Part shown: in pieces, positions 4,420-31,875 of the stretch
Position numbering within the stretch: position 1 is the first letter of the stretch
Layout: each line of letters starts with the position of its first letter
Origin: Chloranthus sessilifolius
Lineage: Eukaryota; Streptophyta; Magnoliopsida; Chloranthales; Chloranthaceae
Assembly: GCA_021018995.1 (NCBI GenBank)
Contig: CM037592.1
Location: 77,441,301-77,505,300 of the forward strand
Length of the DNA: 64,000 bases
Direction: 5' to 3'
Made by a program: the position numbers and the translations under genes
The notes under the pieces: generated by a model
What the model saw: only the letters and a program-made list of their open reading frames with translations
Told to the model about the DNA's origin: nothing
Databases searched by the model: none

Positions 4420-5914
4420 TGATCATTCACATAATATACCATTTTATCACCCTTAACTTAGTGATGCTAGAACTTAGTTTTTTACTAATAAGTTATTGAT
4501 GTGAAGATATTAAAGGAAAACAACAAAAGAGAGCCAAAATATTAATATTCGTCAAAATGAACTCATAAAGCAATAAAAAGATGATTAAACCAAAAGACGA
4601 TTAAATCAAAAGATGAATCATTGCCTACTACAAAGATGAAAAATCGTGCTTAACAATTTTGCAGAACGATGCAATATAAAGTAGAAATCATAATATACGA
4701 TTCTACAAGCAAAAGCCGTTCAAAAGAGTGCGATACAAGAAAAGCGATGAATCATAATAAAGAATCGTAATGAAGAATCGTTCAATAGGAAGCTATATAA
4801 GAAAGAATAGAAAATCATGATTTATAATTTTCTAGAGGAAGTTTTAATAGAAGAATAGAAAATTGTGATTTACGATTTTCCAGAGAAGACACCTTCCAAA
4901 GTTGCTGATCACATGAGAATGAATACCGCCATTCATAAAATTAGAAGAACTCTTAAACAAAAAGTCCAGTGAATCACATATCTGAGAGATTGACGAAAGA
5001 GATTCTTAAAGGACTGTTGCTAAAATAAAGGAAAAAATCTAGTAGTAGAATAACTATAGAAAGCAAGGAAAGATAAGATTAGAAGTAGAATTATACTAGG
5101 ATAGTTTTGCTTTAGTAATATCTTTTATTAGAATTAGAAATTTTAAAAATCGACCCTTATGATCTATAAATAAGAGGCTCGACACATAGGAATAACCATC
5201 GAAAAATTTCACAGCATCAATTGATAACTGAGGTCTGTGTTTTCTTCCGATCAAAGTAGTTTAAGATTTACAAAGTAACATCGTCAACAGTTCTTCTAGG
5301 TCTTGCCTGACAACCAAGGCTGAGGAAGCTGAAAGATCAACCCTTTGGATGGTTCAACTTTTACTTTCTAGTTTAGATTTATTTTTGCTTTCTAGTTTAG
5401 ATTTATTTTATTGCAATTTACTGCTTTGTAAATATCTTCAAATTTTAATTTGAATTGATGACTCAGGCTGAAGTTTGCAAATTAGTGTAATGGTTTTCTT
5501 TTCCATCTTCAAGTTTTTATAAATTGATTGACGCCCAAGTTTTAGGAGTTGATTAGATTAAATCTGTGTTGATAAGATTTTAGTGTTAATTGACGACCAA
5601 TGCTAGGAAACTTGATATATGGTGTAACGGTACTGTTTAATTTCATAAATATCCGATAGCTGAAGATTGTGATTGCCGACCATAACTTGAAGAAGGAAGA
5701 TTTAGGATTTATTTTCTGCAATTTAGATTAAGAAACCATTCTTTTATTTATATTTTTCCAGTAGTTTAGGAACTTAAGAGATAAATATAACTTTTCAGAA
5801 AATTAATATAGATAACCTGTCTTTGTGGGAACGATCCTATACTAGCTCTACAATTTCCATTATGCGCTTGCAATAGGTTAAGACTTTATTAGACACATTA
5901 TTAGAGTTGATCAA
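4420..5914 (+). repeat. 5' LTR of Athila-like element
   Basis: It starts TGATCATTCACATAATATAC and ends TTATTAGAGTTGATCA, and is matched by 13032-14498. Between 4620 and 4890 it holds at least five AATCGT/ACGATT words, including a mirrored pair at 4860-4882. From 5300 to 5690 it holds five variants of a TGACGACCAAGGCT-like unit. No TATA box was assigned with confidence. Confidence 0.92.
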
Positions 5915-5920
5915 GTTTTT

Positions 5921-5938
5921 GGCACTGTTGCTGGGGAT
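5921..5938 (+). other. Primer binding site, tRNA-Asp type
   Basis: TGGCACTGTTGCTGGGGA starts seven bases after the LTR end. It differs at three positions from the tRNA-Asp-type PBS common in Athila elements (TGGCGCCGTTGCCGGGGA), all consistent with C-to-T or G-to-A decay. Confidence 0.8.
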
Positions 5939-6280
5939 ATCATTATATATATATATAAATTTAAGAAAATAAGTATTTATCTTTCTATTTTTAATTTTCT
6001 TTTATCACTTCTTAAATCTCTTGCAGGTTTATTCGGAGTGATGAATCAGAGTTTCAACTTTCCCTGATCAGAGAAGCTCGAGGCTTAGATTTATTCTCTC
6101 TCCCTGCCTTCTAGAATAAAAATAAAATAAAGTTAAAAATACAAAAATATAATTTTTCTTTTTGTATACATCACACCCCGATCTCGAAGCCTAGATTTCT
6201 TCGAGTGTGATCCAGAAATTAAAAGGACTCTCTTGCGTAATTTAGTATCACACCGTATACCCACAAGAGAATCCTTAATT

Positions 6281-7633
6281 ATGGCTGACGAATTGTCAAT
6301 CCAAGCACATTTCAGCCCAATAGCATTGACCGAGCCCTCTTGCATAGTATACCAGAGGTCCCTGTGGGTCAAAATTATGAAATTAAGTTCAATACACTTC
6401 AATCTATACTGACCTTTCATGGGCTTGATCGAGAAGATACCTACCTGCATCTGAGGGACTTCATAGAGCTTTGCACAATACTGCAATTTTCGACAGCCAA
6501 TAAAGAGGCCATAAAACTACATTTGTTCCCATTCTCTCTCAAAGATAGAGCGAAGGCATGGTTAATTTCATTACCTGCGAGAAGTATTACAACATGGGAG
6601 GAACTGCAGTCCAATTTTTTGGGCGAGTACTTCCCAATTGGTAAAACTAATCAAATTTGCCAAGCAATTCAAGACTTCAAGCAAAATCCAGAGGAACTAT
6701 TTGATGAGAGCTGGGAACGGATGAAGGATCTGTTACGGAAGTGTCCTCATCACGAGGTACCAAATTGGTTGATAGCGCAAAGCTTCTACCAAGGGTTGAC
6801 TGAGACTAACTAGTCTATAGTCGATGCCGTAACTGGAGGAGCCTTTATTTCTCAGAACAGCCAGCAGTCTTGGAACTTATTTGAAAAAGAAATTGGCCAA
6901 TAACTCAAAGCATAAATAAGCTCTGCTTAGATCTGATCCAGATGTCACTTGCCACACTCCACTCGCGAGGGGTAGACTTTACGATATCGGCAAAGAATAA
7001 GTAAAGAAAGAGAATGACATGAGTGTGAAAGTTTTGGCTCTTGACCAACAAATCACAACATTAATGGCTGCCAAACCTAGCACCCCGAATAGATCCTTGG
7101 CAAGCTACTCTAATTGCCAGACTAAGACATATACTGAAAACCCATCTACGCCATCCCACCAAGAGGTGGTGGAAAGCAAGCAAATAATGGCTTTTGAGAG
7201 GGGAGATTATGGAAACACATATAATCTAACATGGAGGAACCACCTTGGATTTACCTATGGTTCCATAGGCAGATCACAACTAGCACCATCAGTTGTGTAA
7301 CCTCGATTTCCTCAGACTCAAGCTTTCCACCAAAGGCCTCAAATGTCGGCTGCACAGCCCCAATTTGAACCACAGAGCAATGCACCTGATGCCACAGTTC
7401 TTCAAATCCTCTGGGATTTACAATAACAGTCGCATCAGCACTCAAAGGATTTACATGAGCTTGCTCAATTCTCTCAAGTGCTCAATTCACATACCCAGTA
7501 TATTATGAAGCTGGAAAGCCAGATAGGCCAGCTAGCTTCCCAAGTGGCGAGAAGAGAGAGTGGCCAGTTGCCTACACAGTCAATCAACAATCCTAGAGGA
7601 CAAGTGTTCTTGGGGGAGGCATTAGCCCCCTAA
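6281..7633 (+). pseudogene. Athila-type gag (capsid) pseudogene
   Basis: Gag packages the element RNA into virus-like particles. The likely start is the ATG at 6281; one frameshift before 6340 moves the reading to the main capsid frame. That frame (6340-6813) shows the conserved block YLHLRDFIELC, then LHLFPFSLKDRAKAWL, ITTWEELQSNFLGEYFP and LLRKCPHHEVPNWL, the classic Athila/gypsy gag signature. A stop at 6811, further shifts near 6900 and 7300, and a terminal block at 7440-7633 with the QIGQLASQ-type motif and PRGQ follow. No CCHC zinc knuckle is seen. It is decayed and non-functional. Unlike autonomous Athila elements, no pol follows. Confidence 0.88.
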
Positions 7634-8294
7634 AAACAAATATAGACACCTCATGGATCGTCGAGGCATCGACTCATCCGTAGTACCAATTATAAATTAT
7701 GTAAATTATATCTTTTTCTTTTAAGTTTAGGTATTATACTATGACCCAAATCGTGAAAGACGATGAATCTTAATATCATACCTACTGTACATTATAGTGA
7801 ACAATCGTATGGATTTACGATTGATCATTTAGTCTTGTCTATCAGTGTAAGCGTAGTGATTGCAATTCACTGATACGAGGGTTCATTATCGTTTAATTCC
7901 TAAAAGCTAGAATCAACCGACGATTCTAGGTCAAAATCCAAGTGACGACCGTTTCAGCAAATCATCACTGAGATGTGACCTACATGTTCGAGAGAGGATA
8001 CGTCGGCCCCATTATCTAACCCTCCATTTTTGCTATTAGTTTCCCTCTGTTTTCCAAAAACTCATTGACTAGGACTCAACCATTTTTATTTCCTAAACTT
8101 TCCTTGTATCTCCTGTTTGCTTTTCTAGTCAAGTTCTAAGTAAAATCCTAAAACTAGGGTTCATTGATTCAAGATCAAGGTAACAATCTCTATCTTTAAT
8201 GGAGGAGTCTCTGCAATTAATTTCAAATTTATACACGCAAGTTACGATTTATTAAATAATATTCTCTACACCTTGCAGAAAAAGAAATTGCAGC
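7634..8294 (+). promoter_or_regulatory. Spacer with AATCGT/ACGATT words upstream of the extra ORF
   Basis: No ORF of note. Bases 7745-7930 contain four exact AATCGT or ACGATT words, two facing each other across AATCGTATGGATTTACGATT, and further near-matches. These are the words that cluster in this element's LTRs. They lie about 370-550 bp upstream of the ATG at 8295. A promoter role is inferred from position only; no convincing TATA box was found. Confidence 0.4.
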
Positions 8295-10836
8295 ATGTCG
8301 GGAGAAACGGGCAAGCGACAGAGGGAGGAAGAAAGAGACGGAGGTAACAGTTCCGACAACTCTCCACTTATTAACCGCATCGCACGGGCTGCTGCCCTCA
8401 AGGCTAAATCAAAAGCAGCAGACCCACCCATAAAGAAAGCAAAACCCTCAGGGGATGATAAAGGTAAAAAACCAGCGACCTCCGACATTACAGCAGAACG
8501 ACTCTCAAAATCAATGAAATATCATGTTGTGGGGGCTGAAATCATAGTGGATGTTGCCTTATGGGAAGAATGTGAAATAAGTAGAGGGGCAATCCAATAC
8601 TTTAAGGCTGCTGGGTTGTAGTACTTCCTAGAACCCGGAGTCACACAAGTCTACCCAAGATTGGTACGACTATTTTAGAAAATATGGTTAATAGTAGCAA
8701 GGGTCCAAGCTCAATTTTGTCCACAACCATTGACGGATTCCCGATTGAAATAACAAAAGCAATGGTTGCTGGGGTGATGAATACACCCTTAGAAAGACCT
8801 GAAGTGACCCCTGACAATCCGAGATCAACTATTTTAAGAGAGCAACCACAGTCTCCCAGACTTTGTTCAGATGGTGACAGAGCTACTGGGAACACCCCCC
8901 AAAGACAGATTATTTTTCTTGAGAAAAGATGTAGAATCACGGAGTCTACAAATGCACTTTTTAGATGTCTTAATTCACAATACCATCCATCTAACAGGTC
9001 ATGGGACACAACGGAGAGCACTCTTCGTCAGAGCCTTATATCTTATGGCTATCTGCTACTGGTTCAGTGTCCCAGCCTACTTGTTAGAAGTAGTCAACAC
9101 CATGAGGGAAAAGTTTAACCAAGAAAAATATCAAACAAAAAGATTATGCCTACCTTTTGGAGGGTTAATTACAAACTTATTAAGAAATGTGGGATACAAC
9201 ATTGATCCCAAAGAAAAGGCTCTTCCTAGAATAGAGGATAGCCTCACCACCAAGACCTATAGGAGAACTCTAAGTTCTGTGAACAAACAAAAAATTGCTA
9301 TTTCAGCAAGCACAGAGAGTGTCCCTTCTAGGCCCAAGGGCTGAGAAGAAACTGCCATAGAGTAGCCAATAGAAATCATAGCCCCAAAAGTAGTTACGGA
9401 AGAGGGAGTGAGTACTTCTACTCAACCTCATGAGGGAGCAGAGATTGGCTCTCCAGTACCAGAGAGAATAACCGAGTTAGAACTCCCAGTTGCAGACCAA
9501 ACTAGTTTGTATGACCCTGCTTGGACTCACTAGTAGGGCCTGCTATGCCCCCTTCCACTGAGGCAGACACACTGCCAACTATTACTAAAGTGGACCCTGT
9601 GAGCCCAAATATTGAAATAACATAACAAATTCCTTCATCAATGGACCAATAGATTATTGGAATGGCTATTTCTAGCCATATCCTTGCGCTAATAGAGCCT
9701 GTTGCTCAACCTACAATTTTAGCCACTACAAAACAAACTCTCATCGTTCAAGCAGTTGAAGCAAGACCAAACTCTGAGTTACTAAGAGGGGGTTTCACAG
9801 AATTATTAAATGGAGAAGAAGTTCCCCCTATTGATCCTCCAGTCACTACCACATCAATCCTCGAGCTAGAAAGGAGATTGAAGGCAGTGGAGCAATGGCA
9901 ACTTACACATGAACCAAATATATTACCATTCCAAGATGTAGTAAGCAAATTGATGGAAATAGAACAATGGCTAAATACATATGCCCCAAACTTGGCACCA
10001 CTACCAAGTGTGGTAAAGTAATGGATGAAGGGATTTCACAGACTGAAGAAGAGAGTCTTGGATACTACTCTGACGTCTCAAGAATGCTCATAGATAATAG
10101 AAAGCTTGAAGCAGAAGGCTGCAAAAGAATAAGTTGCACAATGGAAAGTAGAGACAGAAAAGAGAATCCAAGAAGCCACCTCAACTCTTCAAGCACAGAT
10201 CACCTAGCTGCAAGAAGAGAATAAAATAATGAGAGAAAATCAGCAAGCATAAGAAGAAGAGAAGAAGGTGTATGAAGATAAAATCGCAGCTATGATTGAA
10301 CAGTTTGAAAGTTTAATGGTAATGCCAGATGATGCAGAAATTATAAAGGAAAAAGCTTTTAAAGTTTACCAGTAAAAGCTCCATCAACAACTGAGTGAGA
10401 AGGATCATCTACTGACTATAGCTGAAGGAAAAATTTTGTAACTATAAGAAGATAAAGATTCCCTAAGTTCAATCAATGCTGAAAAGAAGCAGATCACTGA
10501 TTCTCTAACAAAGAATAGCTTGGTCGCAGTAACAAGTGAATAAAATAAAGTAGAAAATTGAGAATGGAGTTACGACTAAAAGCTGTTGCGATAAAGAAGT
10601 TGACTACGGATCTAAAAAATAAAGAAGAGGTTGATAAGGAGCATCAGTGTCTGAAAGAAAGCCCCTGTAGAATGGTTGATGAGAAGGAAAACACGGATGA
10701 GGCTGAGCCCGTAACACATGGAGAATCACCTTCAGAAGAAGAACAAGATGATTATTCTATAGCTAAGGTGTCTGACTTGAAAGAAGATCCTACTATTTCC
10801 ATAATTGTATCATTCCCTTCATCACCAAGTGAGTAA
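8295..10836 (+). pseudogene. Extra ORF: putative plant transposon protein family with coiled-coil tail
   Basis: The ATG at 8295 opens a lysine-rich, likely nuclear, basic N-terminus (KRQREEERD, then KKAKPSGDDKGKKP). After shifts near 8621-8684 and 8850 comes the body of the domain I recognise as the Pfam putative plant transposon protein family: VYPRLVRLF, a DGFPIEITKAMVAGVM block, LDVLIHNTIHLTGHGTQRRA, WFSVPAYLLE, and LPFGGLITNLLRNVG. From 9360 on, a Ser/Thr/Pro/Glu-rich linker and then a long Glu/Lys/Gln-rich tail (9860-10836) suggest coiled coil. At least eight stops or shifts are present. The same family occurs at 27425-28755 in the Tekay element, sharing WF-x2-P-x3-LE. Function is unknown. 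It lies where pol or an env-like ORF would be. Confidence 0.7.
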
Positions 10837-13031
10837 ATACTACAAAACATCACAAGCCTCACAGGTATGATCACTCTAGATTTTTTTTAGGTTTATATTT
10901 TTATGTAATCAATTTTTATTTTAGTTTTTCCTTTTACTATAATATTTCTTTTTCTTGATCATTGTAAATATTCATTTAATATATAATATTTTCTTTTGAC
11001 TAACTTTCTTTTTCACTAACAGTGTAATTGTTACTAACTTTTCTTTCATTTTTGTTATTAATGTCTCTGAGAGTAATACGACAATATTTTTCTCAAATTT
11101 GGGGGGACATTCTTTACAGAATTTTTTTTTCACATCCGGTAAATAATCAGTGAATTAGTAATTTTCAGGTACATTATATTTAAGTGTCCACTATTTTTGT
11201 GCTAATGAGAGCATTGTCCGACTTAAGTTTGGGGGGATACACATCTTCTGCGTATAATAGTAGTTAATTAGTATAGTAGTATTTTAGTTAGTTTTATTAA
11301 GTTTATTTTTATAAATTTTTTCAAATTTTTAGTTTTAATAGTTGATCATTATATAGAAATTATGATAGAAGAAAATTACAAATCTTGAAAACTTACGATC
11401 CGTCATAGTAGGAGTTCAATAATCAGAGTAAAGAACAATTATAATTCATCCTTAGCTCGTTGAACACTGCATTAGAAAGAATGTTTGAAACAATAGATTG
11501 ATCTAAACAGTAAAATTTTAGACTATAGTTTCAAAAGTATAAATCAGTGAGATTTTGAGCCAAATTTTCCTTTCCTTGAGAGAGAGACTATTTCTATTCA
11601 AATAGAAAATTTCTTTGAACTTTTATTCTGTTATGAAATCTCATATTGCTGAATTTAAAATCAAGATATTCTAGGAATATGATAACCTGATTTTTTGTCT
11701 AGAGCTATCTGTTAGAAATATCAAAGCAATAAGGCATCTATGCTAGTAAATCATAAAGATGATTTAAGGCTATCTTTTATTAAATCAGAGCCAAAAAAGC
11801 TAAAATCTCAGAAAAATTTATCCTTTGAACCCATATTAGAAGCCTAAACCGAATTTCTTTATACCAAAAAAGTCTGATAAACCCTTAACCATATGTACTA
11901 CCCAAAACTTTCAACCTTTAACCCTTATAGTTTTTTAGATTTTAGAATGCAAAAGAAAGGAAGAAGAGGGAGTGGAAGGAGTAAGAAGCAAAAACAGATA
12001 AGAGGAACGTTAAAAAAAAAGGGTACAGTTGAAGAAATCAAAAGAAGAATATGGGAAGGGAGTGAAAAATCGTAAAAAAGGATGATTTGAAAAGAAGATT
12101 ACGATTCTTAAGCAAAAAACTTTCAAAGAGAATAAAAATCGTAAAATACAATTTTACAAAGCAATGGAAGAAATGGGATTTATAACAGAAACAACAAAAA
12201 TGGGAAGAAGTTATCCAATCCATGGATACTTATCGAAGTAGAAAAAAAGAAGCCTGAAAAGATAGGAAAAAGAAGAGCTAAATTCTCAGAAAAACTTTGA
12301 ATCTTTCTACCTTTTGGAACCCAAAGCCCCATTACAAGCCGAAGGAAAGACCTTTTTGATTTACGATTTGCAAAAGCATAAGCCTAGTAGAGATATGAAT
12401 AATAGATATTATGGATTGCATAGGGAATCATATGAGTAGAGTAGATTATCCTTTTCTATGAGATTAAATTTTTTTGCAATTATCTTGTGACTGAATTCTT
12501 TTTGAGAGTATGTCAATAATGAGTTTTTGAATGAAAATATTTTCTAAATTTATAGTTTAGAAAAATTTATGAAGAATAAATTGTTCACTAATGCATACAC
12601 TCCTGCTTACTATGAATTGAAATTATTGGAGTTCTAATCAAGGATGACTATTATAATGGAAAGTAAGGATAAAAGATTAGTAATTTTAGAAAATCATAAC
12701 AACTATGTGATGACCAACTTGACCAACGTGATTAACTTAGTCAACTTAGATACTTTAGATAGTGTACAAAATTAGTTGAAATATTTAACCTTTCTTTTCT
12801 TTTAAAAAATATTTTAAAAAATCTAAAAATATTTGAAGTTCGTAGGTAACTTCACTAAAAACCTTCAAGAGACTACAACTCCTCCACTAGGGATCACCTA
12901 GGGGTTTAAAGGCTTGTTGCATATGCTAAATGCAATTGTGCTCTCTACAAAAGTGACATTTAAATTTTTAGTTTAGAATATTTTATATTTTCTTGTTTAC
13001 TAGGGATTAGCAAAACGTAAGTTTGAGAGTG
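10837..13031 (+). other. Athila-like 3' noncoding region with polypurine tract
   Basis: The region is A/T-rich without coding. TTTGGGGGGACAT-type G runs at 11098-11113 and 11225-11238 resemble Athila polypurine tracts. The tract nearest the LTR is AAGTTTGAGAGTG at 13019-13031, adjoining the 3' LTR and therefore the functional position. Four AATCGT/ACGATT words cluster at 12065-12375. The ORFs at 11893-12075 and 12038-12223 are low-complexity and not credible genes. Confidence 0.6.
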
Positions 13032-14498
13032 TGATCAATCACATAATATACCATTTTATCACCCTTAACTTAGTGATGCTAGAACTTAGTTTACTACTAA
13101 TAAGTTACTGATGTGCAGATATTAAAGAAAAATAGCAAAGAAGAACGAAAATAATAATATTCATCAAAATGAACTCATAAAATAATAAAAAGATGATTGA
13201 ACCAAAAGACGAATCATTCCCTACTGAAAAGACGAAAAATCATGCTTCACGATTTTTCAGAACGATGCAATATAAAGTAGAAATCATAATTTACGATTCT
13301 ACAAGAGAAAGCCAGTCAAAAGAGTGTGATACAAGAAAAGCGATGAATCGTAATGAAGAATCGTTCAATAAGAAGCTGTATAAAAAATAATAGAAAATCG
13401 TGATTTACAATTTTCCAAAGGAAGTTTCAATAGAAGAATAGAAAATTGTGATTTACAATTTTCCAGAGAAGACACCTTTCGAAGTTGTTGATCACGTGAG
13501 AATGAACACCGCCATACATAAAATTAGAAGATCTCTTAAAGAAGAAGTCCAGTGAATCATGGATCTGAGAGATTGACGAAAGAGATTCTTAAAGGACTCT
13601 ACTGCTTAAATAAAGGAAGAAATTCAGAAGTACATCAACTATAGAAAGCAAGGAAAGATAAGATTAGAAGTAGAATTATACTAGGATAGTTTTTCTTTAG
13701 TAATTTCTTTTATTAGAATTAGAAGTTTTGTAAACCGACCCTTATGATCTATAAATAAGAGGTTCGACACATAAAAATAACCATTGAAGAATTTCACAGC
13801 ATCAATTGACAACTAAGGTCTGTGTTTTCTTCTTATCAAAGTAGTTTAGGATTTACAAAGTAACGTCATCCATATTTCTCTTAGGTCTTGCCTGACAACC
13901 AAGGCTGAGGAAGCTAAAAGATCAACTCTTTGAATGGTTCTACTTTTACTTTCTAGTTTAGATTTATTTTTGCTTTCTAGTTTAGATTTATTTTATTGTA
14001 ATTTACTATTTTGTAAACATCTTCGAATTTTAATTTGAATTGACGACCCAGGTTAAAGTTTGCAGATTAGTGTAATGATTTTATTTTTCCATCTTTAGTT
14101 TTCTAAAATTGATTGACGCCCAAGTTTAGGAGATTGTTGATTAGATTAAATCTATGTTGATAGGATTTTAGTGTTGATTGACGATCATTGCTAGGAAACT
14201 TGATATATGGTGTAAAGGTACTGTTTAATTTATTAAATATCTGATAGCTGAAGATTGTGATTGACGACCATAATCTGAAGAAGAAAGATTTAGAATTTAT
14301 TTTGTAATTTAGATTAAGAAACCATTCTTTTATTTATATTTCTCCAATAGTTTAGGAACTTAAAAGATAAATATAACTTTTCAGAAAATTAATTTAGATA
14401 ACCTGTCTTCGTGGGAACGATCCTATACTAGCTCTACAATTTCTATTGTACACTCTAATAGGTTAAGACTTTATTAGACACATTATTAGAGTTGATCA
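13032..14498 (+). repeat. 3' LTR of Athila-like element
   Basis: It matches 4420-5914 over its length and ends GTTGATCA directly against GTGGG. It keeps the AATCGT/ACGATT cluster (13235-13470) and the series of TGACGACC-like units at about 13890, 14040, 14113, 14178 and 14261. Confidence 0.92.
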
Positions 14499-14908: not shown

Positions 14909-15072
14909 GGTCATACAAAGACATTCAAAGAATTACAATTCAATGTAGGACAATGGACCCACCCTTGGGAAGAAAAGAAAAAAATATGGGAGCAAAATTC
15001 AGAACCCAACTCAAAATAATGAGAAATAAGTATATTCTTGGGCTTTAAAACCACACCACTATCCAAAATTTC

Positions 15073-15240
15073 ATAGCGTATGTATTACATATGCTAGGCC
15101 AAAAAATGCCCAGAATTTCCTAGCGTATGTATTACATACGCTTGGCCAAAAAACCCCAAAATTTGCTTAGCGTATGTATTACATACACTAGGCCAAAAAG
15201 TGCCCATAAACGCCAAGTGTATGTAACACACACGCTAGAC
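15073..15240. repeat. Palindrome array P1 (GCGTATG...CATACGC), four units
   Basis: Four units of an inverted repeat centred on GCGTATGTATTACATACGC occur at about 15074-15098, 15121-15144, 15166-15195 and 15212-15240. Arms are often extended by CCTA/TAGG to a 10-12 bp stem. Spacers of 20-25 bp are A/C-rich (GGCCAAAAA, then GCCCAGAATTT). The units differ at scattered positions. The array lies just upstream of the DUF7745-like antisense gene; the related array P2 lies upstream of the PMD gene. Confidence 0.88.
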
Positions 15241-18960: not shown

Positions 18961-19074
18961 GGCCTAGTGTATCGAATACATACGCTAGGCATAAATTTTT
19001 CAGATTTTGCCTAGCGTATGTATTACACACGCTAATCTTAATTTCCCCCGATTTTGGCCTAGCATGTCTAATAT
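18961..19074. repeat. Palindrome array P2 (same word as P1), split by Tekay-1
   Basis: Units at 18961-18990, 19009-19035 and 19057-19074 share the GCCTAGC(GTATG...CATAC)GCTAGGC plan with array P1. The third unit is cut by the Tekay-1 insertion, and its other arm (ACACAGGCTAGGC) resumes at 31879-31891. The array lies 178 bp upstream of the candidate PMD start codon at 18783. Confidence 0.85.
19070..19074. other. Target site duplication AATAT, left copy
   Basis: AATAT precedes the Tekay-1 LTR; AATAC follows the other LTR at 31876-31880. One mismatch fits later mutation. Confidence 0.7.
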
Positions 19075-19342
19075 TGTAACGTCCCAAAAATTTCATACTT
19101 AATAGTGCACCTCGGGATGCCGACCAACTGGTCAAATGTTTGATCGGGTCAATATTGACTCAGTTGACTTAGTCGAACGTATGGAGGTGATGGAGTTAAG
19201 TGAAACAAGGGTGATTGTATGTGTGAGTACATACACTTAGTTAATTGTATGTGCTTTACACCAAATTGTAAGAACATAAGTTATAAAGAAAAAAGGGGGA
19301 GAAAAGTTAATTTCTCTTTAGTTGAGTGGTTGAGAGGAGTTA

Positions 19343-19378
<36 letters not shown>

Positions 19379-21606
19379 AATGCATGGGTGATTTGTTGTG
19401 AAATGAAGAGGGAAGCAATTAATGCAAATCATTGATCTTGGCTCGCAAAGTCTAACGGATCGAGCTCGGGATCGAGGAGAGATTTAGGTTGGAGGGTCGA
19501 AAACCCTAGTGAAGGAGATCCAACTGGTCGACTTGGGTAAGAATTACAAATCTATGTTTTGTTTAAACTATTAGCTAGAGGAATTAGAATTTGTTGTGTA
19601 TTATTTAAATGTATGATTAATAGGAGAGATGATGAGGATAGATGATGAAGAGATGAGAAGAAGGGTGTTAGATCTGGAATTGGGTGAATCCGATTGAACG
19701 AAATTACATTTTGTTCAATTGATTTTGAACAAAGAATGGATAGGGAAGAAAGCAAAGGGGTTCTGAGGGGAATCGTTCGAACAAATTGTGAAATCGTTCG
19801 ATCGATTCGAACTCTAAAGAAAAACCGATCGATCAATTTAGAAATCGTTTTACCGATTGGTTGGAACCTGTGTGAATGAATTAAAAATCGTTCAGTCGAT
19901 TTTGTTATCTGACAAAGGCATGTTAGAATGGTTAATGGTGGGATCGATCGAATGAAATAGAATTCGTTCGATCGATTTTAAAAGTTTTGTTCGATCGATT
20001 TAAATTTCGTTCGATCGATTTGAAAATCGTTTGATAGATTCTGAAATCGTTCGATCGAATTGGATGAAACTCAGTTTTTGTTCAGTTTTTGCATATGAAT
20101 AGTTGTTTATTGGTGTTAAGCTTATAACCTAATGTTCTTACACTGGCAGTGATGAAAGATATGTGTTTGGTCAGGTCTAGATCGAACTGAATTTTGTGAT
20201 GGTAGAGTGCTAACATGGATTAGAGAATCCGAGTGTGTAAACGCAAGTGAGGTAGGGGAATATCTAAACGAGTACACTTTATTACGAGCATTTACGTAGT
20301 GATAGAATGTTGTTACATGATCTTTAAACATGGTTTTCATTTGTTATTAATGCAATAAGTAGAGAAATGGAAATGGTGTGCGTGTTTACATAAAAATTCA
20401 TGAGAAAACTTGTTAAGTAAGAATAAAATCATCCCAGGGATGTAAGAACACATTCGGCATCGCAGAGATGCATCAGATGACGTGACATCCCAGGGATGTA
20501 TGGTGGATGTAGAGATCCACGTTAAGAAGTAAACAGTAAACATAATTGCATGGGTTGTGAGTTACTATGTATTAACACAATCACACGGTGAATAACTATA
20601 TGTATTACACAATTTGATTTAAGGTTCAGAGAATACCTAATCGACTCGGCGGGATAACCGTGACTGACTCGGCAAGATATCCGTGACCGGTACGGCGGCT
20701 AATTCGTACACCAGAAGTCATCCCAGGGATGTATAGTAGTGGTATGCCCGTCGCCTATGAGACAGGGACGAGGACGATTTCATGAAAAATAGTCTGATTA
20801 GACGACAATGGAGGGTATTCCATCGGGGCTCGATGCTATATTGCTCGGGGATTATTTAAGTTAAGATTTAAGTCATGGTCTCAGCCTGGTTGCAACTAAG
20901 GGAACTAGTGGTCATTGCAAAATACATGAGTAGAGTAATTAATGCAGTAAAATTGTTTTATCGTATCTTAAATTTACTTTTCAAGCAATGACATATCTAT
21001 GAGTTCATATTTTATTCCTGTCATGAAATATATGTTTGTAAGAAGGATATACTTGCTGTGATATTGCCCATATTGAGCTAGGATGTAGCTCACCCTTTGA
21101 CTATATGTCACAGGTGACGATTTAGGAATTGATGATAACTTAGGAGTTGCTACCGGCGAGGGCAATCTCGGAGATTCAGAGTACTTTCCAAGGGAAGAGT
21201 TTGAGCCTCCTCCGGAGAGATTCTTTTAGAAGACTTGCTGCATACTTTGATAGTGTTTTGTAAGGAGAGAGAGATTTATGGCTTGGTATGTCTAGCCTTG
21301 TTTTTTGTAAGAACAAATACATCTGTAATATTCTTTTATCGAACCATTGAAAGTGACCTTAGCTACAGCACTGATGGTTCGAGTTGGTTCTTTTGTTCAT
21401 GCGGAGTCATGAAATTAGAACTATCTTTTGGATTGGTGTTTTGGATTAGCGTATAGTAGAATTGGAGATTTATTTTGCATTAATTTCTTGTGCTTTCATA
21501 TTGTGAATGGGGTGTACCAAGTGTTCCGCACGTACATTATGGGGCACGACCTCGAGGGCTGTGCCGATGGCACGGGTTTCGGGGTGCTGAAATCTAGGCT
21601 GTCACA
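19075..21606 (+). repeat. 5' LTR of Tekay-1
   Basis: It starts TGTAACGTCCCAAAAATTTC and ends GGCTGTCACA. It contains a GA dinucleotide run (about 19349-19376), a TTCGATCGA array (19770-20070), and three copies of the palindrome CATCCCAGGGATG (20430, 20486 and 20719). It is paired with 29235-31875. Confidence 0.93.
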
Positions 21607-21608
21607 GT

Positions 21609-21620
21609 TGGTATCAAAGA
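21609..21620 (+). other. Primer binding site, tRNA-Met type (degenerate)
   Basis: TGGTATCAAAGA follows the LTR by two bases. It matches the common plant initiator-Met PBS TGGTATCAGAGC except for two positions. Confidence 0.8.
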
Positions 21621-21710
21621 AATTCGTTAGGATTTCTGACAAGACTAAGATTTTTGTCAGAGTGAAGGGATCTTCTGCTAATGAAACTTTGGTTTCATGT
21701 GCAGAGCGCT

Positions 21711-22952: not shown

Positions 22953-23118
22953 GTGAGTTTTTACTTAGATTGATTTTTATCATATTAGATACCTCGAAAA
23001 TGTGATTTTGTTTTGTTTTGTTTCAAGAAGCATCCACCTAATTAATATGCATGTTGCATGAGTGTGTGTTGCACGAATGGAATGCTGAACTAGGTATAAC
23101 TTATACATACCTTGCAAG
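22953..23118 (+). other. Candidate 166-bp intron or insertion between gag and protease
   Basis: GTGAGTTTTT at 22953 and TTGCAAG ending at 23118 bound an A/T-rich stretch with stops in the coding frame. If it is left out, the gag frame meets the protease frame in phase. It interrupts a region normally continuous in Tekay elements. It may be a true intron or a small insertion that happens to have splice-like ends. Confidence 0.45.
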
Positions 23119-26100
23119 TGTATGGCAGAGGAGGTAATGTCGCATATATAGCAAGAGCGCTAATGGACCCGGGATCTACCCATTCATATGTCACACCTTG
23201 ATTCGCGAAAAAGATGAAGGTTCAGCTAGAGACTTTGGATTTTGTCTTGGCAGTGTCCATTCCGACGGGAAAATCGGTGGATACGGACTTAGTCTGCAAG
23301 TCAATGGTTGTAGCTATTAAAGATGGGGATATTTATGGGGAAGTTTTTGAGTTGCCGGTAGATTTGATTTTACTCGACATGCAAGGATTCGACGTGATCC
23401 TTGGCATGGACTGGTTGTCACAACAACGTACAGCGATCGATTATGAAATAAAATTGGTCACCTTTAGGCCAAACATGAGACGTTCTTTTAAATTTGTAGG
23501 AGTGAGGACGAAGTTTCTACCACTCGTGTCAGCTATCAAAGCGAAATGTTTGATCAGAAGTGGATGTAAGGGTTATTTGGCTTTCCTAAAGGATGACAAG
23601 GACGGGAAAAACATTGCTTTAGAGATTTCGGTAGTATGTGAGTTTGATGACGTCTGTCCAGATGAATTGCCAGGACTACCTCCGGAAAGAGAGGTTGAGT
23701 TTGCTATCAAATTGGCACCAGGAACGGAGCCGATTTCTAAAGCACCGTATCGAATGGCTCCGGCCGAGTTGAAGGAGTTGAAGGAGCAACTACAGGAGCT
23801 ATTAGACAAAGGGTTTGTGAGGCCGAGTGTATCTCCTTGGGGTGCTCCGGTCTTGTTTGTCAAGAAGAAGGGCGGGTCAATGAGACTGTGCATTAACTAC
23901 CGTCAGTTGAACAAACTCACTATAAAGAACAAGTATCCATTACCAAGGATAGATGATCTGTTTGACCAACTATAGGGGGCAAAATAATTTTCTAAGATCG
24001 ACTTAAGATTGGGATATCATCAACTCAGAGTCAAGGCAGAGGATGTTCAAAAGACTGCTTTAAGGATGAGATACGGACACTACGAATTCTTAGTGATGCC
24101 ATTTGGATTGACGAATGCGCCGGCGTCGTTTATGGACCTAATGAACCGGGTGTTTAAACCACACCTGGACTCTTTCGTCATTGTGTTCATCGACGATATC
24201 CTCATCTACTCTAAATCAAAGCAAGAACATGAAGTGCACTTGAGAACCGCTCTACAAACACTGCGTGAACGCCAGTTGTACGCCAAACTTAGTAAGTGTG
24301 AGTTTTGGTTGGAAGAAGTAAGCTTTTTGGGACACGTGGTCTCAAAGGAAGGTGTCACGGTGGATCCAGCAAAGATCGAAGTGGTAGTGCAGTGGGACAG
24401 CCTAAGACAGTGACTGATATACGCAGTTTCCTTGGTCTAGCTGGATATTATCGATGCTTTGTGGAGGGATTTTCAGCGATATCGGGGCCACTAACGAGGC
24501 TCACACGGAAGGATGTAAGATTCAAGTGGACCGAAGCTTGTGAGAGGAGCTTCCAAGAGCTTAAAACGCGCCTCACGTCAGCTCCAATACCTGCAATTCC
24601 AACAGGCAGTGGGGGTTTTGCAGTTTATAGTTACACTTCACATCATTGTTTAGGCTGTGTGCTTAACCAGTATAAGAAAGTGATTGCGTATGGGTCAAGG
24701 CAGTTGAAAGAACATGAGAAGAATTACCCAACGCATGACCTTGAATTAGTCGTAGTTATTTTTGCGTAAAAAATTTGGAGGCACTATTTGTATGGAGAAA
24801 CTTTCGAAATCTTCACTGACCATAAAAGCCTTCGATATTTATTCACACAGAAGGAGCTAAACATGCGACAACGGAGATGGATGGAGTTTCTCAAAGATTA
24901 TGACTGCTCCATCCAATATCACCCAGGTAAAGCAAATGTGGTTGCAGATGCTTTGAGTCGAAAGGGTTCAGCTCAATTGGCTAACATGATATTGGGAATG
25001 CATAGGTGGAAATTGTTTGAAGACCTGTCATTGTATGATGCGATGATTGAGGTACAAGCTTCAGGCACTCTGTTGGCCAATATTTCAGTTCGACCGATAA
25101 TTTTTGAGCACGTACACGAGCTACAGATGAAAGACTCTGAGTTAGTCAAGATTTGAAAAGTAGTGGAAGATACTAGATCGGACTTCTCTATAAAGGAGGA
25201 TAATTCCTTGTTGTTCAGAGGACACCTCTGTATTCCAACCGATGCCGGTCTAAGACAAACCATTTTGGATGAAGCTCACAAGTCTCAGTATGCGATCCAT
25301 CCTGGCAGTACTAAGATGTATCAAGACTTGCGTAAGAACTACTGGTGGAGAGGTCTGAAACATGATGTAGCAGAATACGTGTCAAAATGTTTGACGTGTC
25401 AACAAGTGAAAGTCGATCATCGGCACCCGGCTGGATTATTGCAACCTCTACCCATACCAGAGTGGAAATGGGAGTCGATATCCATGGATTTCATAGTAGG
25501 ATTGCCATGGACGGTGAAGAGGCACAATGCTATATGGGTTGTTGTGGATAGACTGACGAAGTCAGTTCATTTCTTACCCTACAATACGATGTATACTGCT
25601 GGACGACTCGTGCAACTTTATATGAAGGAGATAGTGCAGCTACACGGCATTCCGAGCAACATTGTATCTGATAGTGACCCATTAGATACCTCAAAATTTT
25701 GACAAAAATTTCAAGAAGGTATGGGCACTCAATTGGATTTTATTACAGCATTTCACCCACAAACTGACGGGCAAACGGAACGAGTGAATCAAGTGATCGA
25801 AGACATGCTCAGGGCACGTATGCTTGAATTACAAGGCTCGTGGGATCAACATCTACCGTTGATCGAATTTGCGTATAACAACAGTTTTCAAGCAAGCATC
25901 GGAATGGCACCGTATGAAGCTCTATATGGGAGACGATGCCGATCGCCCATCAACTAGGAAGAAACTGGAGAAAAATTTGTGTTGGATCCGAAAATCCTTG
26001 AGGACAATGCCATGTTTGTACGGATGATTAGAGATAGGCTTAAAGCAGCCCAGAGCCAGCAAAAGAGCTATGTTGATTTTAAGAGAACAAGCCTCGATTT

Positions 26101-26527
26101 TGCCATTGGCAATCACGTCTTTGTGAAAGTATCACCCACGAAGGGTGTGATGCGGTTCGAAAAGAAGGGGAAGTTAAGTCCTCGTTATATAGGACCCTTT
26201 GAAGTTTTGGGTCGAGTGGGTGAAGTAGCCTATCGCATTGGTTTACCTTTGATGTTTAATAGTGTCCACAATGTTTTTCACATTTCAATGCTCAGGAAGT
26301 ATGTAAAGGACCCCACGCACATTTTGGGCAGTCAACCGATAGAACTACATGAGGATATGACTATAGTTGAGGATGCTACTCAAATTTTGGATTGAAAGGA
26401 CAAGACTCTCCATACTAAAGTCATTCCATTAGTACTCGTCAAGTGGGGTACTCATCCAGTTGAGGAAGCCACTTGGGAACGGGAGGCTGAAATCAAAGAA
26501 TTGTATCCTCATATGTTTGAACAGTAG
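23119..26527 (+). pseudogene. Tekay-1 pol: protease, RT, RNase H, integrase, chromodomain
   Basis: The protease active site appears as ALMDPGSTHSY near 23163-23195, followed by a stop. Reverse transcriptase spans about 23640-24400, with [20 protein letters not shown], then a stop near 23973 and another near 23985, [17 protein letters not shown], and an intact FIDDILIYS catalytic motif. A shift near 24400 leads to RNase H (24420-24960, stop near 24767). Integrase follows: zinc finger near 25275-25410 (H..H..CLTC), MDFIVGLP, VSDSDP, TERVNQ, with stops near 25156, 25700 and 25957. The C-terminus (26140-26527) has the GPFEVLGRVG module and, after one stop at 26393, a chromodomain-like LVKWGTHPVEEATWERE ending YPHMFEQ. 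Lineage: Tekay/Del. Confidence 0.92.
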
Positions 26528-27424
26528 AGTGTGAATGCTAGTCCTAAGATTTTGTTTTGTAATTCACAGTGGAAACTTGAATTGGTATAAATGAATATAT
26601 GTGCATTAGTCTTTTTGTTTGGATGGTGTTTCGTATCGATACATGCTAATGTCTTATATTCCGGTCTAAGTGTCCATCTATTTAGGGTTGAACTGTGAAT
26701 AAGTTCGCGGCGTTGAGCTGCCACCTTGTGGGTGGAGCTAAGTTCAAGATGATTAGCTCACACAACAACCATGGATCATGGGGTGTGTCAATATACTCTC
26801 AAAGATGAAAATTTGAAAATTCGTTCGATCGAATTTCTGTAGCCTAAAACCATTGGAGTGTTGCCAGAAAATCGTTCGAACGAAATGCACAGCCAGTAAG
26901 AGTCTCAGCTGTTGCCAGTAACCGTTCGATCGATTTTTCAAATCGATCGAGCGAAATGGGTCGGCCAGTGGGGTACAATGTGACTTTAAAAAATTGTCCA
27001 GAAAATCGTTTGATCGAATTTTCAAACCGATCGAATGAAAATTGAGAGGGTATTTTAAAGACAACAATTCATTCGATCGAAATGAAATTCGTTCGATCGA
27101 ATTTCACAACTGCCATTTATACTTTTGGAAACCGATCGAATGAATTTAAATTCATTCGATCGATTTAAAACCTTATATATCTAGCGTGCAAAAATATTTT
27201 CCATTTCACTTGCATTCGACCATTTTTGTTTTTCTTCCTTCGAAGGACTGTGTATGCTGCCGGTTTTCATCAACTCCGGCCACCTCCAATCGGGTTTTTC
27301 TTCATCACAGGTAACCTTAAACTTCTTTTAGGGTTACTGTCTTTTTCAAGGGGGATCCATTTCCCTATTTTGCTAGCATTTGAGCTAGATTAGGCTTAAA
27401 ACCAAATTTTTATTTTTGCCCACG
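26528..27424 (+). promoter_or_regulatory. TTCGATCGA array and TATA-like site upstream of the third ORF
   Basis: There are no genes. Bases 26818-27168 hold about ten TTCGATCGA-type words (GTTCGATCGAATTT, ACCGATCGAATGAA and variants), the same words as in this element's LTRs. They are followed by TATATAT at 27174-27180, about 245 bp before the ATG at 27425. The layout suggests a dedicated promoter for the third ORF; transcription is not shown. Confidence 0.5.
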
Positions 27425-28755
27425 ATGCCACCTAAGACTCGCCAAGCATCGGCGAGTGCGGCACCTAAGAAGACCACTCCGGGTTCTTCTTCCCAACAGC
27501 CACCGAAGAAACCCCCTACGGGTTCTTCTTCGGCACCACCTACGCAAGCACCGCCCACACGTGAGCGACCAAATGAGTGGTGGTCTGAAAAAGGTTTTGA
27601 ACCCGAGTGGATAATAGACCCAAAAATTGTCGCCAAGCGAGATGAGACCCGGTGGGCCTTTGACTATATCTCTACTGCGGGTTTGACGGGCATCCTTTGC
27701 CCTTGTCACGATACTTTTTACCCAAGGATTGTTTGATTGTTCTATTAGAACATGGAGCTGGTTAAGGACCCGACAATCCTTAAAACAAAAATTGATAATC
27801 GACCGTACAGGTTTTCTTTTGATGACGTGGCGGACGCGTTGGAATGTTTTCATACGTACAATCATGAGGATATGCCCTGGCTGAACCTTTTCCGGCCCCA
27901 TTGGATTATAAATATGTCGCTGCTCAAATGACCCATGGCCGGACGGGTTCGGGTCATTCGATTAAATGGGTTGACTTGCCTCGCGAGCTTTGGATGCTCG
28001 ATTCTATAATACAATGCAATTTGTATCCGTTACGCCATAAAATTGAAAGAGTCGGTGAGGTCCAAATGGCACTGTTTTCGGCTTTTAGCGGTCGTTGGTT
28101 TAACGCACCGAAAATGGTACTTGAGGGAATGAAGTATGCTCACAAGAAGATGCTTAAGGGCGCCAAGAAACCGATTGATGATATGTCGTATGCCCGACTT
28201 ATTTCTTTAATGGTCAAGGATTACGCGGGGGATGACACCTACACCCTCTCTGCGAGTGAACACAAGTTGACGGGTAACGTCCAACCATTCACCATGGTGG
28301 ACTGGAACAGAACGTATGTTAAATTGACCAAGAAGCCCTTGGTGGAGGAGCCACCACCACCTGAACAACAACCTACAGACCAACCCCAAACTCCTGAACT
28401 GCCAGCCCATGACACTCCACTATATGATGAGCCTCCTCGACACCCGACACCTGAGTACATACCACCACCTTACGGAGGCGTTCCTACACCGACCGTTGTC
28501 GACCTCTATGCGTTGTTGGAAGCCAATACACTTCAGATGGCGGAGAACAATCATCTTCTCAACCGCTAGCTTGATTATTACGACTCATTGCACGCCGAGT
28601 AGATGCGTTTCATGTACCCTGACGATTATCTCCAGCGGATGGCGGCAGTGCAGGCTTGGGTCCGGGATGCTTCAACGTCGAGTGTGGGAGCTCGTGGCGG
28701 TGACAGTGCTCAGCCCGATGTTGGTACTGATCCTCCTAGTAATGAGGAGTCTTGA
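27425..28755 (+). pseudogene. Tekay-1 third ORF: putative plant transposon protein family
   Basis: The ATG at 27425 opens a basic, Pro/Ser/Thr-rich N-terminus (MPPKTRQASASAAPKKTT), then ERPNEWWSEKGFEPEW, which resembles the ERGF-type start of the family. Two in-frame stops near 27736 and 27748, and a shift near 27890, precede the core: WMLDSIIQCNLYPLRHKIER, ALFSAFSGRWFNAPKMVLE, then ARLISLMVKDYAG. A Pro-rich tail follows (EEPPPPEQQPTDQPQTPELP) and the frame ends at 28755 after two more stops. It shares the LD-x2-I, H, R, AL, WF-x2-P-x3-LE pattern with the Athila-like extra ORF at 8295-10836. Such ORFs are not part of standard Tekay elements. Function is unknown. Confidence 0.72.
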
Positions 28756-29234
28756 GGGTTCTTTTCATTCCTAAAATGAGTAATTATGGGTGTATTTTGG
28801 GGGCGGGTTCGGAGAATTTTTTTTTTTTTTATTGGAAAAATGTAAATGCTTATACCAGGTGTTTGGGAACTGATGTCCTTTTGAAAAATCGTGGCATGGC
28901 TGCCACTCACTATTAATTCCTTACTTTTGTTACTATATATATATTTTGTCTGTTCATATGGATTATACTTTGTGGTTGATCTTCTTTTGGGTATTCTATG
29001 ATTTGATGGTGTGGCTATTGGTTTGCAACTGAGTTCTTGCAGGATGTGTATTTACGCAGTTCTAGTGTATGTGATGTGTGTGTATGTATATATGTCGGTT
29101 CATTCTTGTTGAGCCTCTATGGTAATCTGTAGTTCTATGGTATGGGGGGGGGGGGCACTCCCATCCCGGTGTGTGTGGGGGAGGGGACGGTCCCTAAGTA
29201 CAATTTTCGGGGACGAAAATTCTCGAGGGGAGAA
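28756..29234 (+). other. Tekay-1 3' untranslated spacer with polypurine tract
   Basis: Noncoding. It contains a 13-base G run near 29143-29156 and ends with GACGAAAATTCTCGAGGGGAG at 29213-29233; the AGGGGAGAA at 29226-29234 is the polypurine tract abutting the LTR. This arrangement is typical of chromoviruses. Confidence 0.8.
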
Positions 29235-31875
29235 TGTCACATCCCAGAAATTTCATACTTAATAGTGCACCTTGGGATGCAGGCCAACTGGTCAAATGTT
29301 TGATCGGGTCAACATTGACTCAGTTGACTTAGTCGAACGTATGGAGGTGATGGAGTTAATTGTATGTGCTTTACACCAAATTGTAAGAACATAAGTTATA
29401 AAGAAAAGAGGGGGAGAAAAGTTAATTTCTCTTTAGTTGAGTGGTTGAGAGGAGTTAAGAGAGAGAGAGAGAGAGTAAATGCATGGGTGATTTGTTGTGA
29501 AATGAAGAGGGAAGCAATTAATGCAAATCATTGATCTTGGTTCGCAAAGTCTAACGGATCGAGCTCGGGATCGAGGAGAGATTTAGGTTGGAGGGTTTGG
29601 AAAACCCTAGTGAAGGAGATCCAACCGGTCGACTAGGGTAAGCATTGCAAATCTATGTTTTGTTTAAACTATTAGCTAGAGGAATTAGAATTTGTTGTGT
29701 GTTATTTAAATGTATGATTAATAGGAGAGATGATGAGGATAGATGATGAAGAGATGAGAAGAAGGGTGCTAGATCTGGAATTGGGTGAAACTGATTGAAC
29801 GAAATGTATGAAATTGATTGAACGAAATTACATTTCGTTCAATCGATTTTGAACAAAGAAAGGATAGGGAAGAAAGCAAAGGGATTCTGAGGACCTATTG
29901 ATCGATTTAGAAATCGTTCGATCAATTGGTTGGAACCTGTGTGAACGAATTTAAAATCGTTCAATCAATTTTGTTAACTGACAAAGGCATGTTAGAATGG
30001 TTAATGGTGGGATATATCGAACTAAATAGAATTCGTTCGATCGATTTTAAGAGTTTCGTTCAATCAATTTAATTTTCGTTTGAACGATTCTAAGAATCGT
30101 TCGATCGATTTGAATTCATTCGATCGATTTGGAAATCGTTCGATCGATTTTAAGAGTTTCGTTCAATCAATTTAATTTTCGTTTGAACGATTCTAAGAAT
30201 CGTTCGATCGATTTGAATTCATTCGATCGATTTGGAAATCGTTCGATCGATTTTAAGAGTTTCGTTCAATCAATTTAATTTTCGTTTGAACGATTCTAAG
30301 AATCGTTCGATCGATTTGAATTCATTCGATCGATTTGAAAATCGTTCGATCGAATTGGATGAAACTCAATTTTTGTTCAGTTTTTGCATACGAATAGTTG
30401 TGTATTGGTGTTAAGCTTATAACCCAATGTTCTTACACTGACAGTGATGAAAGATATGTGTTTGGTCAGGTCTAGATCGAACCGAACTTTGTGATGGTAG
30501 AGTGCTAACATGGATTAGAGAATCTGAGTGTGTAAACGCAAGTGAGGTTGGGAAATATCTAAACGAGTACACTTTATTACGAGCATTTACGTAGTGATAG
30601 AATGTTGTTGCATGATCTTTAGACATGGTTTTCATTTATTATTAATGTAATAAGTAGAGAAATGGCAATGGTGTGCTTGTTTACATAAAAATTTATGAGA
30701 AAAATTGTTAAGTAAGAATAAAATCATCCCAGGGATGTAGGAACATATTCGGCATCGCAGAGATGCATCAGATGACGTGACATCCTAGGGATGTGTGGTG
30801 GATATAGAGATCCACGTTAAGAAGTAAACAGTAAACATAATTGCACGGGCTGTGAGTTACTATGTATTAACACAATCACACGGTGAATAACTATATGTAT
30901 TGCATAATTTGATTTAAGGTTCAGAGAATACAAGGCGGGATAATCGACTCGGCGGGATATCCGTGACGCACGTGGCTAATCTAATCCGATGACATCCGAG
31001 ATGTGGATGTAGTAGTAGTATGCCCGTCGCATATGAGACAGGGACGAGGACGATTCCATGAAAAATAGTCTGATTAGACGACGATAGAGGGTATTCCATC
31101 AGGGCTCGATGCTATATTGCTCGGGGATTATTTAAGTTAAGATTTAAGTCATGGTCTCAGCCTGGTTGCAACTAAGGGAACTAGTGGTCATTGCAAAATA
31201 CATGAGTAATAAATGCAGTAAAATTGTTTTATCACTTCTTAAATTTACTTTTCAAGCAATGACATATCTATGAGTTCATGTTTTATTCCTGCCATGAAAT
31301 ATATGTTTGTAAGAAGGATATACTTACTGTGATATTGCCCCTATTGAGCTAGGATGTAGCTCACCCTTTGACTATATGTCACAGGTGACTATTTAGGAAT
31401 TGATGATAACTTAGGAGTTGCTACCGGCGAGGGCGATCCTGGAGATTCATAGTACTTTCCAAGGGAGGAGTCTGAGCCTCCTCCGGAGAGATTCTTTTAG
31501 AAGACTTGCTGCATACTTTGATAGTGTTTTGTAAGGAGAGAGATTTACGGCTTGGTACGCCCAGCCTTATTTTTTGTAAGAACAAATACATATGTAATAT
31601 TCTTTTGTCGAACCATTGAAAGTGACCATAGCTACGGCACTGATGGTTCGGGTTGGTTCTTTTGTTCATGCGGAGTCATAAAATTAGAACTATCTTTTGG
31701 ATTGGTGTTTTGGATTAGCGTATAGTAGAATTGGAGATTTATTTTACATTAATTTCTTGTGCTTTCATATTGTGAATGGGATGTACCAAGTGTTCCGCAT
31801 GTACATTATGGGGCACGGCCTTGAGGGCTGTGCTGATGGCATGGGTTTCGGGGTGTCGAAATCCGGGCTGTCACA
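29235..31875 (+). repeat. 3' LTR of Tekay-1
   Basis: The partner of 19075-21606. It differs by a shorter GA run, loss of 34 bp near 29365, a rearranged stretch near 30930-31010, and expansion of the TTCGATCGA region to three copies of a 103-bp unit (30035-30343) where the 5' LTR has about one. Confidence 0.93.
30035..30343 (+). repeat. Three tandem 103-bp units carrying TTCGATCGA words
   Basis: Units begin at 30035, 30138 and 30241 with GTTCGATCGATTTTAAGAG and are nearly identical. Each has four or more TTCGATCGA-type words. The near-identity shows the expansion is younger than the general divergence of the two LTRs. Confidence 0.92.

Follow-up and report, generated by a model that had tools for sequence, protein, structure and literature searches.

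A 64,000-nucleotide stretch of the Chloranthus sessilifolius genome (assembly GCA_021018995.1, contig CM037592.1, positions 77,441,301 to 77,505,300 of the forward strand), here called the window, contains two long terminal repeat (LTR) retrotransposons, an Athila-like element at approximately 4419-14454 and the gypsy element Tekay-1 at approximately 19067-31850. Both names are provisional labels kept from an earlier, sequence-only reading of this DNA. A Pfam scan of the window detected gag and a zinc knuckle in Tekay-1; gag is also seen in the Athila-like element, within which no pol-like frame of at least 120 codons was found. Each element carries an accessory open reading frame (ORF), starting with the ATG at 8295 and 27425, respectively, and both ORFs are broken. 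The sequence-only reading had noticed short self-complementary words, which cluster in both LTRs of either element and again upstream of its accessory ORF, and had proposed a module of target words and accessory protein. Here, these words are analyzed in the window and in the whole genome (2.17 Gb, 32 contigs), and the results point to one operator that would serve two promoters, one in the LTR and one in front of the accessory ORF.

Word counts by region were compared with 1000 dinucleotide shuffles. In the Athila-like element, AATCGT/ACGATT occurs six times in the 5' LTR (shuffle mean 0.73; reached by none of the 1000 shuffles), five times in the 3' LTR (reached by two) and five times at 7641-8259 (reached by one), with four of the latter copies at 7749-7920 and one at 8244, and it is absent from the gag and accessory regions of the element. 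The edges of this Athila block were drawn with the word in view; as a look-elsewhere control, a joint-enrichment score was calculated over every 6-mer, and AATCGT was the top 6-mer shared by the 5' LTR and the block, with none of 1500 shuffled pairs scoring as high (one of 1500 for the 3' LTR and the block). The Tekay-1 word, TTCGATCGA, is found seven and 11 times in the LTRs and eight times in the block upstream of the accessory ORF, each cluster being reached by none of the 1000 shuffles, and is missing from gag-pol, the accessory ORF and the rest of the element. The clusters lie where they had been reported, far above the shuffled background, and the observation is real and stronger than could be seen from the window before. 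The idea that each element uses a word of its own does not hold, since AATCGT is enriched in the Tekay-1 LTRs as well (eight and 12 copies; shuffle means 2.0 and 2.5; reached by two and none of 1000 shuffles) and is thus not specific for Athila; in the Tekay-1 block, it is not enriched (two copies, reached by 220 of 1000 shuffles).

The two words had also been regarded as unrelated, but both turned out to be dyads built on the half-site AATCG. The Tekay-1 word is the middle of the palindrome CGWTCGAWCG, which contains three CpG at 4-bp steps and is mostly flanked by AAWY and RWTT, and the letter frequencies in the Tekay-1 family are alike in the block (284 sites) and the LTR (261 sites, at most two mismatches). 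When at most one mismatch is allowed, nine palindromic sites lie in the 5' LTR of Tekay-1, ten in the block and 15 in the 3' LTR, and none is found in the 4960 bp of gag-pol, the 1334 bp of the accessory ORF and the 476 bp following it. A scan of the word-bearing Athila regions for AATCG-Nn-CGATT, with n ranging from 0 to 25, peaks at n = 7 with 18 sites when both LTRs are included (shuffle mean 1.6), a number that none of the 1000 shuffles reaches at any n, and the Tekay-1 dyad has n = 6, with an inner overlap at n = 2. Both words are therefore variants built on one half-site. The Athila-like element contains a further word cluster at 12068-12363, which is missing from the earlier list and in which the N7 dyad is significant on its own (11901-13030; none of 1000 shuffles). 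Only short antisense frames are present there, and one can only guess that it was perhaps the promoter of a lost antisense gene.

Copies of Tekay-1 were collected by a DNA search with the accessory ORF, for which 40 of 823 candidate places were scored; 20 of the 39 places outside the window were fetched, resulting in 21 copies together with the window. Arrays were not selected for in this family because the search was anchored on the ORF and not on the word. Both an internal and an LTR array (at most two mismatches) are present in 19 of the 21 copies; L047 has no LTR match in its stretch, the stretch of L051 includes the ORF only in part, and L048 has a decayed LTR array in which TTCGATCGA is not matched anywhere with one mismatch or fewer. 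The internal sites of the window copy follow each other in start-to-start steps of 51, 50, 21, 63, 21, 42, 20, 43 and 20 bp, and distances of 20-21, 41-43, 50-51 and 62-63 bp are found across the family. These distances fit a single period of 10.3 bp, the best in a scan from 7 to 16 (R 0.94, 16 sites; block list without two weak sites of L050 and L054 with steps of 35 and 14), and the long distances alone are phased as well (p 0.001 versus uniform distances). Genome-wide, a search for site pairs with gaps of 0-30 gave 1629 forward and 1803 reverse matches, some of them on both strands, whereas the same pattern read backwards, which lacks the CpGs, gave none on either strand. Among the first 100 pairs listed, all of which lie on one contig, the spacing is 19-23 bp in 75, 16-17 bp in eight, 24-25 bp in four and 37-40 bp in 13 pairs, and no pair is spaced by 26-36 bp. 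A spacing of this kind would be required for side-by-side binding on one helix face.

The internal arrays are followed by a TATA box. TATAWA occurs after the last internal site in all 20 array-bearing Tekay-1 copies, at +9 to +11 bp in 18 and at +31 bp in two of them, and likewise at +10 or +11 bp in all three divergent families described below (L003, L004 and L005). The TATA box of the window copy begins 21 bp past the start of the last site and therefore at the distance of one inter-site step, and a distance of 262-290 bp separates the array from the ATG in those 11 of 20 Tekay-1 copies that contain the exact start string. The near-fixed place of the TATA box after the array makes the block promoter-like, and it probably represents an internal promoter of the accessory ORF, which has its operator in common with the LTR. 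Past the TATA box, two distinct leaders (L039-type and L044-type, distinguished by eye) are present at equal distance in the Tekay-1 copies, which would suit an exchange of the leader next to an unchanged promoter.

A pattern search with the word yielded 51 matches, of which eight loci were taken. L003, L004 and L005 are related elements (pol DNA identity about 73%) that carry an array between pol and a related accessory ORF; the encoded accessory proteins are 41-61% identical to that of Tekay-1. An LTR-side array, which is not what brought these loci in, was found in all three cases, with 15 sites in L062, seven in L065 and nine in L066 (at most one mismatch). L064, in which no array follows the L005 ORF, was dismissed as a counterexample: its match to the 5' LTR copy L066 ends at 995 and the array there starts at 1023, the break apparently being located at a CACTA-like insert (judged by eye). 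L063 was discarded, as it lies on the wrong side of L004 (pol). The Tekay-1 block has no blastn match longer than 70 bp in L003, L004 or L005. In the accessory ORF, the proportion of synonymous differences (pS) is 0.79-0.92, that is, near saturation, compared with 0.22-0.41 for nonsynonymous differences (pN), with some terminal residues of L004 looking misaligned; protein and site were therefore retained as the rest changed. It could be argued that a fragment of the LTR was copied inward to give the internal array, which grew by slippage without having a function, as related elements can exchange sequence and a real tandem duplication is present in the 3' LTR of Tekay-1. However, the spacings follow each other in a different order in block and LTR, the arrays persist where the rest of the block has no match above 70 bp, and the TATA box follows 21 of the pooled 23 arrays at +9 to +11 bp and the other two at +31 bp, which makes such a passive origin highly improbable.

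The accessory proteins form two clades, with 61% and 67-70% identity within and about 40-51% between them, and the split between site variants coincides with this division. Sites of Tekay-1 and L005 allow an A at position -2 and a C at position -1, whereas those of L003 and L004 have mostly T at -2 and almost no C at -1. An A at both inner positions is seen in none of 248 block sites and 17 of 203 LTR sites of Tekay-1 together with L005, compared with 13 of 22 block sites and 14 of 22 LTR sites of L003 together with L004 (Fisher p 1e-16 for the block and 7e-9 for the LTR; the sites are not independent). The expectation that a change of the LTR word is matched upstream of the accessory ORF is thus borne out in one contrast, the variant shifting at both places between the two clades. 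This co-change of site and protein, the arrays of short sites in non-coding regions and their tandem expansion by a 103-bp unit would also suit a VANC-like anti-silencing function, in which binding of the accessory protein to the arrays would serve to remove DNA methylation and not to activate a promoter. This possibility is nevertheless considered unlikely: the position of the TATA box is explained by a promoter function alone, the accessory fragments have no DUF1985 or DUF287 match in Pfam scans, and the sites of VANC21 have been described in one orientation, whereas the Tekay-type sites are palindromic. Furthermore, CpG-to-TpG/CpA decay is no lower in the arrays, with 13-29% in array bins of block and LTR versus 14-28% in accessory ORF bins with at least five CpG sites (L051 left out; LTR piece also without L043, L047, L048 and L056).

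The accessory proteins show a faint resemblance to PF20167. The best match, that of the L005 fragment (E 1.1e-4, 22.6 bits), lies below the curated cut-off of 45, the Athila piece at 8838-9341 reaches E 0.035 and 14.4 bits (cut-off 45), and the Tekay-1 fragment of L048 has no match at E up to 10. Single comparisons of the Athila protein with Tekay-type accessory proteins gave 23% identity over 120 and 133 aligned columns (E 3e-6 and 7e-10), by which these proteins are distant relatives. A search of the public protein set with the L048 fragment found no homologue among 1174 candidates. The longest accessory frame of the Tekay-1 family comprises 309 codons, whereas about 443 would be expected for a region of this length.

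Taken together, we propose that a 16-bp site with mirror symmetry, AWYCGWTCGAWCGRWT in Tekay and AATCG-N7-CGATT in Athila, acts in arrays in the LTR and, directly upstream of an internal TATA box, at a second promoter from which a separate mRNA for the accessory ORF would be transcribed. Both promoters would be controlled by a dimeric DNA-binding factor, which occupies the sites side by side on one helix face, and with one factor on both promoters, the accessory gene and the genomic RNA would be switched on together. The likeliest element-borne binder would be the PF20167-like accessory protein, which may function as an activator or anti-silencer on both promoters, similar to Tas of foamy viruses on LTR and internal promoter, and families lacking the ORF would borrow the factor. 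This model builds on the arrays, their internal phasing, the TATA position, the clade variants and the excess of synonymous over other codon change, all read directly from the sequence, and from these it predicts transcription from the internal TATA box, dimeric binding, the identity of the factor and the direction of its effect. That one operator is common to two promoters seems very likely; the accessory protein as its binder is a serious candidate with somewhat less than even prospects, and a host factor stands at about an even chance. The whole explanation, comprising two promoters, one operator and the accessory protein as the likeliest element-borne binder, appears evenly balanced. Its most specific form, in which the PF20167-like protein binds phased AATCG dyads in the LTR and in its own promoter, resulting in feedback and co-divergence, and gene-less families use the factor in trans, is tentative and on balance rather doubtful. 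The originally suggested module of target words and accessory protein, drawn up after VANC, is in this light partly right: the same sites do occur in the LTR and before the ORF across families, but the module is neither closed nor element-specific, and it is to be recast as one operator with two promoters.

Several observations weigh against this model. The same array occurs in LTR-like places of L006/L059, L007/L061 and L008/L060, which were found via the word; six accessory fragments have no relative at E up to 1e-3 in these loci, L006/L059 being covered from the array of one LTR to the array of the other, and their sites belong to the L003-type variant. The Athila block shows enrichment of the half-site but no significant excess of full dyads (two sites, 65 of 1000 shuffles), no TATAWA follows the words, the sole TATAWA preceding them at 7691, and the support comes from one copy; the Athila part of the picture is suggestive. 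Phasing is weaker in the LTR array of the Tekay-1 family (best period 10.1, R 0.75; long distances alone p 0.13), and in L065, the LTR-side array of L004, a step of about 21 bp occurs just once among six. The Tekay-1 LTRs have no TATA box at a fixed distance after the array (65-687 bp, or none within 700 bp), and the LTR promoter could therefore not be located. A full-length accessory ORF is found in none of 20 Tekay-1 copies (L051 left out), and Pfam scans of the accessory fragments revealed no known DNA-binding domain. In old copies, the arrays do not differ from other parts in CpG decay, so that there is no sign of lasting protection of the arrays from methylation, and this idea was rejected. 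Finally, the clade comparison is a single contrast of sites that are not independent, and recombination might homogenise the arrays of block and LTR.

That sites occur in families in which no accessory relative was found means that the factor either acts in trans or is the host's, and the Tekay word cannot be called element-specific, as had been assumed. A host transcription or chromatin factor could bind the dyad arrays as an enhancer, with the accessory protein doing something else; arrays would then have been gained in the LTR by several gypsy lineages and, within the Tekay group, in the internal promoter as well. Clusters of host sites are also seen in stress-responsive elements. Besides the families in which no accessory relative was found, the abundance of short-distance site pairs throughout the genome supports this explanation, as does a TATATAAGG box located 104-118 bp after the array in five arrays of three of these loci (L006/L059, L007/L061 and L008). 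A like sequence follows the array of L001, with TATGTAAGG in place of TATATAAGG. L008 contains an integrase piece and a chromodomain, and the other loci would, judging from their like post-array sequence, be gypsy families of the same kind. On the other hand, the variant common to block and LTR is clade-specific and tracks the clade of the accessory protein, and, no motif database having been searched, we know of no host factor with such a site. Binding by a host factor thus falls just short of an even call. If it applies, several retroelement families depend on one host regulator, which is marked by the many phased arrays in the genome; in both cases, the sites provide a handle on how these retroelements are switched on.

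Table 1. Features of the two elements in the window (strand as given; a dot means no strand)
Feature	Position	Strand	Details
Athila-like 5' LTR (approximate ends)	4419..5868	+	AATCGT/ACGATT half-sites at 4597-4877, upstream of TATA box at 5165
Dyads of the Athila-like 5' LTR	4419-5160	+	5 AATCG-N7-CGATT, at most 2 mismatches
Athila block before accessory ORF	7641..8259	+	5 AATCGT/ACGATT: 7749, 7803, 7817, 7920, 8244
Athila accessory ORF, broken	8295..9344	+	weak PF20167 (Transposase_32) match at 8838-9341
Third Athila word cluster	12068..12368	.	between accessory ORF and 3' LTR
Athila-like 3' LTR (approximate ends)	13031..14454	+	5 AATCGT/ACGATT, 6 N7 dyads
Tekay-1 5' LTR (approximate ends)	19067..21600	+	9 palindromic sites (at most 1 mismatch), 19691-20057
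Tekay-1 internal array	26822..27162	+	10 palindromic CGWTCGAWCG sites, at most 1 mismatch
TATA box, proposed internal promoter of Tekay-1 accessory ORF	27174..27180	+
Tekay-1 accessory ORF region	27425..28758	+	broken by stop and frame changes in the window copy
Tekay-1 3' LTR (approximate ends)	29235..31850	+	15 palindromic sites, 29836-30352

The window contains further repeats and genes. In the 3' LTR of Tekay-1, a 103-bp unit with several sites is repeated 3.2 times at 99% (30029-30353); no such tandem repeat was reported as such in the 5' LTR, and we read this as an expansion of the array at or after insertion of Tekay-1. Upstream of the 5' LTR, a 297-amino acid open frame on the reverse strand (16968-17861) encodes a plant mobile domain (PF10536, E 1.4e-20), and a satellite-like tandem repeat with 3.9 copies of a 47-bp unit is located at 15063-15246. 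A second LTR pair (34303-34797 and 58329-58575) has a 248-bp unit duplicated in one LTR; CTATTATTTCAG occurs six times in one LTR versus once in the other, and there is no matching internal cluster. Tekay-2 was considered as a further example and rejected, as the interior of the element lacks its repeated LTR word and only four scattered single sites lie within 32900-59200.

Many plant LTR retrotransposons carry additional ORFs (aORFs), the role of which is given as undetermined (PMC7264820, PMC11728184); an operator shared by LTR and internal promoter would offer a concrete and cheap test of the function of such accessory proteins. A 3' aORF with Transposase_32 in Athila and a 5' aORF in sunflower Tekay have been described (PMC11728184). 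The accessory ORFs studied here resemble them in their weak matches to PF20167 and, in Tekay-1, in lying between pol and the 3' LTR; the sunflower aORF, by contrast, is located 5' of gag and has no known domain. Operator arrays or an internal promoter are not described for plant aORFs in the sections consulted (PMC11728184). Accessory ORFs between pol and the 3' LTR are also known from Retand, for which antisense TRP28 ORFs, internal tandem repeats and a proposed regulatory role are reported (PMC11963269), and from maize Grande, whose gene23 has its own promoter (PMC7264820). Tandem repeats in Retand and a dedicated promoter in Grande thus parallel the arrangement described here, but those ORFs are antisense, and no site shared by LTR and internal promoter appears in the available sections. 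Among the papers listed by literature searches, judged by title and beginning of abstract and with subscription literature mostly outside their reach, none deals with such sites in plant LTR elements, and a literature text search for the word together with retrotransposon found nothing.

The VANDAL elements of Arabidopsis, which are Mu-like DNA transposons, carry dense arrays of short sites, which have expanded in tandem and diverged together with the VANC protein (PMC5735166). A parallel to VANDAL has already been raised for accessory ORFs of LTR retrotransposons, and neither shared sites nor an internal promoter is described in the available portions of these papers (PMC12844716, PMC11728184). 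Non-coding arrays of short sites, tandem expansion and joint divergence of protein and site are also seen here; in contrast to VANDAL, the elements are LTR retrotransposons, the sites are palindromic and common to several families, and there is no DUF1985 or DUF287 match. The closest working analogue would be the circuit of LTR and internal promoter in foamy viruses, followed by VANDAL. The internal promoter of foamy viruses serves accessory genes. Both this promoter and the LTR are activated by Tas (PMC8670036, PMC4929722). The Tekay-type arrays differ in being long and helically phased, the host is a plant, and the circuit is a proposal drawn from DNA sequence. Like foamy viruses, however, the Tekay-1 group would possess two promoters, one in the LTR and one inside the element, here with the same sites in both, and if the proposed model is true, plant gypsy elements would have a self-regulating circuit of the foamy-virus type.

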